From the NCBI GenBank assembly GCA_012730105.1, contig JAAYBJ010000030.1:1-36500 (forward strand): a stretch of DNA of 36,500 nucleotides. The letters are read 5' to 3'. Shown piece by piece: positions 16,587 through 17,291 of the stretch. Both the position numbers and the translations under genes were made by a program. How positions within the stretch are numbered: position 1 is the stretch's first letter; each line of letters starts with the position of its first letter. Origin of the DNA: Candidatus Hydrogenedentota bacterium (GTDB lineage Bacteria; Hydrogenedentota; Hydrogenedentia; Hydrogenedentales; CAITNO01). The notes under the pieces are model-generated. The model worked only from the letters and a program-made list of their open reading frames with translations, did not search any database and was not told the DNA's origin.

Positions 16587-17291
16587 TCAGACCATCCATG
16601 TCTCCAAACCGTAGGTGGCATCGGATTCGTGAACAGCATCGGTGCCCATGTCGGGATTCATTTTGTCCCAATACCATTTGGCCGGGTTTTCGAGGATGTA
16701 TTTTCGGATGCGGCATAGTTCCTGTTCATTGCGGATGATGTGTTCGTAATAATTGCGTTGCCATAATTTTCCGGGAAACGGCCGCCAATCAAATTGTTTT
16801 ACGCCGTCCATATATCGTTTCGTTGTCAGGGTTTTGAACCGTTGTACCACGTCCGGCAATGATAATTGCGTTGGGGCATTTTCCGTAGGGGCGCCCCCCT
16901 GTGGGCGCCCATTTTCATACGTTTGGGTTGGGCACCCACGGGGGGTTGGGCACCCACAGGGGGTTGGGCACCCACGGGGGGTTGGGCACCCACGGGGGGT
17001 TGGGCACCCACAGGGGGGTGCCCCTACGATGATGATAATTCCGTGGATATGGTTGGGCATAACCATGAATGCGTCTGTGTCGATGCCGGGATAATGGGTA
17101 CGAATCTCATTCCATGTCGTATGGATCATTTGGCCGGGGGCATTCAATTCCATTTCCGCATTCCTGATGTTCCCGAACAGGGGGATGCGTTTTTGGGTGC
17201 ACATGGTCACAAAATACGCGCCTGCGCGGGAATAATCGTACCCTTGTAATCGGATCGACCTGCGATGATGTTTCTCGGGGTCGTATGACAT
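16587..17291 (-). CDS. REP-associated tyrosine transposase (IS200/Y1-type HUH domain) with in-frame repeats
   Basis: 234 residues. Y1 HUH transposases nick single-stranded DNA through a tyrosine and process palindromic repeats. Seen here: an N-terminal RRSIRLQGYDYSRAGAYFVT motif typical of RAYTs, the metal-binding HUH motif H81-x-H83 in MPNHIHGI, and the likely catalytic tyrosine at 181 or 182 in LWQRNYYEHIIRNEQEL. Between these, residues about 90-137 consist of a low-complexity Cys-Pro-Thr-Pro-Arg-Gly repeat that is encoded by a palindromic DNA array. The repeat replaces a loop of normal RAYTs and keeps the frame because each unit is 18 bases. The ATG at 17291 has a modest AGGT upstream. No partner transposition gene is present. 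Confidence 0.85.
   Translation of the reverse strand: MSYDPEKHHRRSIRLQGYDYSRAGAYFVTMCTQKRIPLFGNIRNAEMELNAPGQMIHTTWNEIRTHYPGIDTDAFMVMPNHIHGIIIIVGAPPCGCPTPRGCPTPRGCPTPCGCPTPRGCPTQTYENGRPQGGAPTENAPTQLSLPDVVQRFKTLTTKRYMDGVKQFDWRPFPGKLWQRNYYEHIIRNEQELCRIRKYILENPAKWYWDKMNPDMGTDAVHESDATYGLETWMV
16885..17027. repeat. Palindromic array inside the RAYT gene: five 18-bp units within 26-bp inverted repeats
   Basis: The arms 16885-16910 (starting GTAGGGGCGCCCCCCTG) and 17002-17027 are inverted repeats of 26 bases with two mismatches. Inside lie five nearly identical tandem units of GGTTGGGCACCCACGGGG or its ACAGGG variant, at 16926-16943, 16944-16961, 16962-16979, 16980-16997 and 16998-17015. Each unit contains the mini-palindrome TGGG-CA-CCCA. 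The last unit overlaps the right arm. Similar GTAGGGGC...GCCCCTAC palindromes are, as far as I recall, dispersed repeats in several bacterial phyla. The array lies wholly within the coding frame. Confidence 0.85.

Follow-up and report, generated by a model that had tools for sequence, protein, structure and literature searches.

The described system that most resembles the gene analysed here is subclass 2.4 of the TnpA_REP transposases (REP-associated tyrosine transposases, RAYTs), in which REPs lie inside the tnpA_REP genes themselves, in frame and generally between the HUH motif and the catalytic tyrosine (Quentin et al., 2018; PMC6006769). The accessible part of that paper lists NH[IFV]H, WQ and YIxNNP as subclass motifs, describes double-foot REPs for the subclass, and states that the in-gene REPs perhaps have little effect on activity. 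In-frame GTAG REPs have also been reported in unrelated genes (Di Nocera et al., 2013; PMC3733652). GTAG recognition as well as binding and cleavage of single-stranded REPs are established experimentally for group 2 and group 3 RAYTs (PMC8266576).

Because in-frame REPs between HUH and tyrosine were published in 2018, the basic finding described below, and with it the central idea of a first-pass annotation of this DNA, is not new. Codon-level tests and an 18-bp array of truncated REPs were not found in the accessible text of PMC6006769. Near-fixed outer REP edges with a variable spacer, and genomes with class REPs only in RAYT genes, were likewise not found in the accessible text of PMC6006769 and PMC3733652.

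Results

A REP pair within the variable loop of a RAYT gene

The gene lies on the minus strand of the 36,500-nucleotide stretch of Candidatus Hydrogenedentota DNA analysed here (the window), with the following features:

16587..17291, minus strand: RAYT/TnpA_REP gene, 234 aa; HUH residues H81/H83, catalytic Y198; Y1_Tnp (PF01797)
16860..17027, minus strand: variable loop, residues about 89-144, between the HUH strand and the helix starting at residue 145
17002..17027, minus strand (sense): left REP, GTAG GGGCACCC CCCTGT GGGTGCCC; translation VGAPPCGCP
16925..17019, minus strand: 18-bp tandem array, unit AACCCCCCGTGGGTGCCC, six codons each; 5.2 copies including the 3' part of the left REP
16885..16910, plus strand (antisense): right REP, GTAG GGGCGCCC CCCTGT GGGCGCCC; its complement is translated GRPQGGAPT in the gene

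The encoded protein scored above the Pfam cut-off for PF01797, and Foldseek matched it to 4er8 (E. coli TnpA_REP) and to ISDra2 and IS608, i.e. IS200/IS605 transposases. The match to the NCBIfam model NF047646 (REP-associated tyrosine transposase) is split into two stretches by the loop insert and reached 62.3 bits, against a curated cut-off of 80. The protein combines NHIH with Y---NP in a Y1 transposase fold, as do TnpA_REP/RAYT class 2 proteins; the DH[VI]H and Y---Q motifs of class 1 IS200/IS605 TnpA are absent from it. In an alignment of 47 sequences, H81, H83, W177, Q178, Y198 and N202 are invariant and P203 is at least 90% conserved. The catalytic tyrosine is Y198, in the motif KYILENP. 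Since H81, H83 and Y198 are invariant, the loop insert can be placed between HUH and the catalytic tyrosine, where the first-pass annotation had put the repeats of what it had correctly called a RAYT. NHIH and WQ agree with subclass 2.4, and YILENP is one residue off the published tyrosine motif; the variable HUH-strand-to-helix insertion with in-frame REPs that marks the subclass is also present, with two REPs in the loop. The window gene is a RAYT resembling TnpA_REP subclass 2.4, which is reportedly the same as RAYT group 4 of Bertels et al. 2017. An AlphaFold2 model gave high confidence for the core and pLDDT of 43-51 for most of residues 90-140, located between strand 81-88 and helix 145-167; the HUH-to-helix loop is predicted from this model to be disordered.

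Two inverted arms were identified within the gene at 16884-16911 and 17001-17028 (28 nt, 93% complementary). Each comprises a complete 26-nt REP with a GTAG foot, an 8-bp stem and a 6-nt loop, and the pair of inverted REPs thus constitutes a REPIN; left and right REP are set apart by a single compensated pair in the stem. In gene orientation, the left REP (GTAGGGGCACCCCCCTGTGGGTGCCC) precedes four copies of AACCCCC[C/T]GTGGGTGCCC, each equal to AA plus the final 16 nt of the REP. TRF reported the array at 16925-17019 with a period of 18, 5.2 copies and 96% match, as the sole tandem array in the whole window. The 18-bp units are REP copies from which the GTAG foot and the bulk of the 5' arm are missing, and the array therefore adds no further complete REP. 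The translation holds ...MPNHIHGIIIIVGAPPCGCPTPRGCPTPRGCPTPCGCPTPRGCPTQTYENGRPQGGAPTE..., the Cys-Pro-Thr-Pro-Arg-Gly repeat.

The inverted arms, the TRF array and the translation of 16587-17291 bear out the earlier claims of palindromic repeats inside the reading frame and of a hexapeptide repeat arising from 18-base units. The annotation had counted five 18-bp units flanked by 26-bp arms; array and arms stand, with the refinement that the arms are full REPs and that one of the five units is the left REP's own 3' part. The palindrome folds as single-stranded DNA with z = -5.1, and the loop RNA folds at -99.9 kcal/mol with z = -7.3. No shuffle was equally stable in either case, which argues that the palindrome did not arise by chance.

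Loop REPs in homologous RAYT genes

A scan of GTDB genomes yielded 80 homologues. The scorable set of 78 genes comprises the window gene, its paralogue and 76 of these homologues, and covers many phyla. A strict GTAG hairpin is present in the loop of 59 of the 78 genes, and 45 carry two or more. The palindromes are GTAG-type REPs, which bears out the proposal that they are repeats of the kind RAYTs act on, and many homologues are alike in this respect. Strict REPs number 113 in 17.8 kb of loop, compared with 5 in 30.3 kb of other coding sequence and 94 in 142.6 kb of flanks. The outer positions of the REPs are largely fixed and the spacer is variable: 18 of 45 genes have a left REP starting 15 nt past HUH, 13 of the 14 genes in one class have exactly 17 nt from the end of the right REP to the helix motif, and the inner spacer ranges from 9 to 183 nt. 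Arrays with an 18-bp period recur in many of the homologous loops; apart from one weak 13-bp case, every period found is divisible by three. REP class tracks the RAYT tree (31 changes versus 45.7 when shuffled; 0/200 shuffles). A conserved cleavage dinucleotide was sought beside the loop REPs; no fixed CT or CA site was found there, and a pyrimidine bias was seen at -1.

These data bear on the view, held in the accessible text of Quentin et al. (2018; PMC6006769), that the REPs are simply tolerated: mobilised by the enzyme, they would land in its own gene as they do elsewhere, and a flexible surface loop would accommodate them without any role. The predicted disorder of the loop and its peripheral location in the model published in the same source agree with tolerance, as do the in-frame GTAG REPs that PMC3733652 reports in unrelated genes of several species. 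Moreover, 19 of the 78 genes have no strict loop REP and are scattered on the RAYT tree, indicating that loop REPs are dispensable. Against tolerance speak the near absence of REPs from the remaining RAYT coding sequence and the largely fixed outer positions.

Several loops deviate in organisation. Those at L095:3001-3714 and L127:3001-3714 contain tandem whole REPs, with a 51-bp period and four left REPs in the former and a 78-bp period spanning left and right REPs in the latter; whole REPs are thus also able to multiply in frame. Four further loops (L107, L113, L122 and L134) carry double-foot REPs in the reading frame (GTAG...CTAC, a foot at each end of one palindrome). The RAYTs at L124 and L100 have empty loops, yet their genomes, G049 and G047, contain 19 and 38 dispersed matches to the REP pattern GTAGGGGC.

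The window RAYT itself was absent from three congeners. Other matches in its GTDB family are at most 47% identical, and homologues in other phyla reach 53-55%, a patchy distribution consistent with horizontal transfer.

Conservation at the DNA level

When synonymous codons were permuted within each gene, 1.96 of the 113 REPs remained. Between genes, the same residue is encoded by the same codon in 87-99% of cases in REPs versus 43-46% in the core, and this high identity also holds in a subset of genes whose genomes contain few other copies or none. A test that made no use of the hairpin criterion gave the same picture: VGA in the loops is coded GTA GGG GC[AG] in 67 of 90 cases, and APT and SPL are coded GCC CCT AC and TCG CCC CTA in 40 of 47 and 15 of 18 cases, respectively. 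Right REPs are translated in phases 0, 1 and 2 across homologues. All 40 distinct loop REPs pair over the full 8-bp stem, with compensatory changes at six of the eight pairs; since a REP had to form a hairpin to be detected, the pairing figure is partly circular, and this requirement inflates both the pairing and the codon-identity figures.

On these comparisons of coding sequence, the loop REPs are conserved as DNA, not as protein. The opposite possibility, that selection acts on the loop peptide, with the palindrome as a by-product of composition, could draw on residues such as VGA and APT/SPL that recur at the loop edges. The codon data contradict it, given the near-complete loss of REPs upon synonymous permutation, the extreme codon choice and the translation of the right REP in three frames, and we find it barely credible. 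The first-pass annotation had named homologues with the loop peptide but no DNA palindrome as evidence against its reading; the pattern found is the reverse.

The folding and covariation data also bear on autoregulation, in which the REP pair would fold in the mRNA, or be bound by the enzyme, and thereby limit translation of the transposase. The stability of the loop RNA fits such a mechanism, and IS200-type transposase expression is under hairpin control according to work cited in the accessible part of PMC3733652. However, the hairpin lies mid-gene and not at the gene start, and each REP keeps its own GTAG hairpin with internal covariation, neither of them required for a left-right mRNA stem. 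In none of 30 pairs of 26-nt REPs is the left stem identical to the right one (4.4 expected, P 0.008), and such systematic differences weaken a long stem. We regard autoregulation as improbable.

REPs elsewhere in this and other genomes

Four exact matches to the REP pattern are present in the draft genome (5.6 Mb, 343 contigs). Two of them are those in the window gene, a third is in the loop of the genome's single other RAYT (contig C209), and the fourth is in a terminal 18-bp array of contig C231 that matches the array beside the C209 RAYT. Matches with one mismatch that still form a hairpin were likewise found only at these sites. A search of the genome with the array DNA gave no further copies, and no strict REP lies within 1 kb on either side of the window gene, where a REPtron has flanking REPs. 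Counts of CGTAGGGGCG in the genome (12 matches versus 23 for the reversed control) were uninformative. A dispersed REP population was therefore not seen in this draft genome, all four exact copies being in or beside the two RAYTs. The absence of matching palindromes elsewhere had been put forward in advance as grounds for rejecting the own-substrate idea, and the result comes close to that case; further copies confined to the second RAYT speak against a dispersed population here, yet fit a target kept in cis.

The second RAYT has a setting of its own. Its start overlaps the stop of an N6 methylase (hsdM-like) gene on contig C209 (L004:1-2159), and an 18-bp array lies 3' of it at the contig end. 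Contig C231 (L006:1-1709) opens with a C209-type array, followed by a full REP and a type I specificity (hsdS-like) gene. The RAYT and its REP-derived array may thus sit inside a type I restriction-modification operon, the C209-C231 join being putative. Elsewhere in the genome, contig C168 (L003:1500-1620) carries degenerate fragments of GTAGGG..CCCTAC palindromes between genes, which may be relics of a different REP family.

REP totals in other genomes range from 2 to about 250. For L055, L065, L067, L077, L080, L081 and L118, genome searches found every hairpin REP that matched the pattern to be inside the RAYT gene, the confinement at L067 resting on a total of two REPs. The same holds for L079 apart from one double-foot palindrome elsewhere. 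L057 was dropped as a confined genome, its flank holding further REP-like hairpins of another length. Recognisable class REPs thus lie only in or beside RAYT genes in the window's genome and about eight others, a confinement that is provisional because the pattern captures one REP length at a time and most of the genomes are drafts, in which repeats are under-assembled.

Simple tolerance is hard to reconcile with genomes that show class hairpin REPs in RAYT genes and no dispersed population, or with the conservation of synonymous REP positions in genes whose core is about 55% identical. We judge it somewhat unlikely. The first-pass annotation had offered tolerated insertion in a surface loop as one option; the predicted disorder agrees with it, and the conservation at the DNA level favours a retained target.

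Discussion

The reading we lean towards, with reserve, is that the REP pair represents the enzyme's own target and has been kept in cis, in a predicted disordered loop encoded by the REPIN. Two observations favour it over mere tolerance: the rest of the coding sequence is almost free of REPs, and the REPs are conserved where no other copies were seen. The pair occupies a largely fixed site in homologues, conserved both as sequence and as hairpin. Beyond the anatomy of one gene, this arrangement is general among homologues, and confinement to RAYT loci recurs in several draft genomes. There is a counterpoint: high DNA identity could also result if RAYT specificity conserved a REP pool whose members re-insert at a hot spot, and in genomes with tens to hundreds of copies the in-gene ones are possibly ordinary insertions.

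The HUH-to-helix loop, predicted to be disordered, is coded by a REPIN, an inverted pair of GTAG hairpins of the kind RAYTs bind and cut as single strands. By analogy with the characterised enzymes, the loop REPs would serve as substrate of the window enzyme while its gene is single-stranded. The earlier suggestion that the gene carries its own substrate holds as far as GTAG REPs in the RAYT gene and their frequency in homologues are concerned; cutting by this particular enzyme is presumed from the same analogy. Selection for recognition in cis would maintain the loop REPs, and the pair would move with the gene in horizontal transfer and could seed a REP pool in a new host. Slippage of the REP 3' part probably gave rise to the 18-bp units; only whole-codon lengths would survive, letting the spacer grow or shrink and the ends stay.

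A bolder version, which we consider possible but doubtful, is that in this RAYT lineage the gene carries its target as a self-contained unit: cognate REPs would occur only within its reading frame, maintained as DNA by selection for recognition in cis, and the gene would take them between phyla, each transfer being able to found a REP population. The locus bears on what makes bacteria retain RAYTs and on how an enzyme and its REP remain matched. If the target is coded in the enzyme's gene, co-inheritance of the two becomes automatic and a single gene transfer could found a REP population. The system also provides a clean genetic handle, as the target can be removed synonymously, leaving the protein unchanged.

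Among known systems, IS200/IS605 elements (IS608, ISDra2) share with the window system a related HUH/Y1 fold and the logic of a hairpin with a tetranucleotide guide. Their hairpins, however, are at the element ends outside tnpA, and their DHxH and Y---Q motifs are both absent from the window RAYT. The E. coli TnpA_REP REPtron and REPIN/BIME have in common with the window gene the HUH/Y1 fold (4er8), the GTAG foot and inverted REP pairs. E. coli REPs flank the gene and are dispersed, whereas those of the window's genome are in the reading frame and confined to RAYT loci. As far as the accessible description of subclass 2.4 goes, its members resemble the window gene in NHIH, WQ and Y---NP and in a variable insertion that separates the HUH strand from the following helix, and resemble both it and its homologues in long canonical GTAG REPs in frame between HUH and Y and in a wide phylum spread. 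Unlike subclass 2.4 as published there, the window gene has no flanking REPs within 1 kb and its draft genome no dispersed REP family. Rickettsia palindromic elements (RPE) and the intragenic GTAG REPs covered in the accessible part of PMC3733652 are likewise in-frame, translated palindromes. They occur in unrelated genes at varied sites, whereas the REPs described here lie in the cognate transposase, at a mostly fixed outer position.
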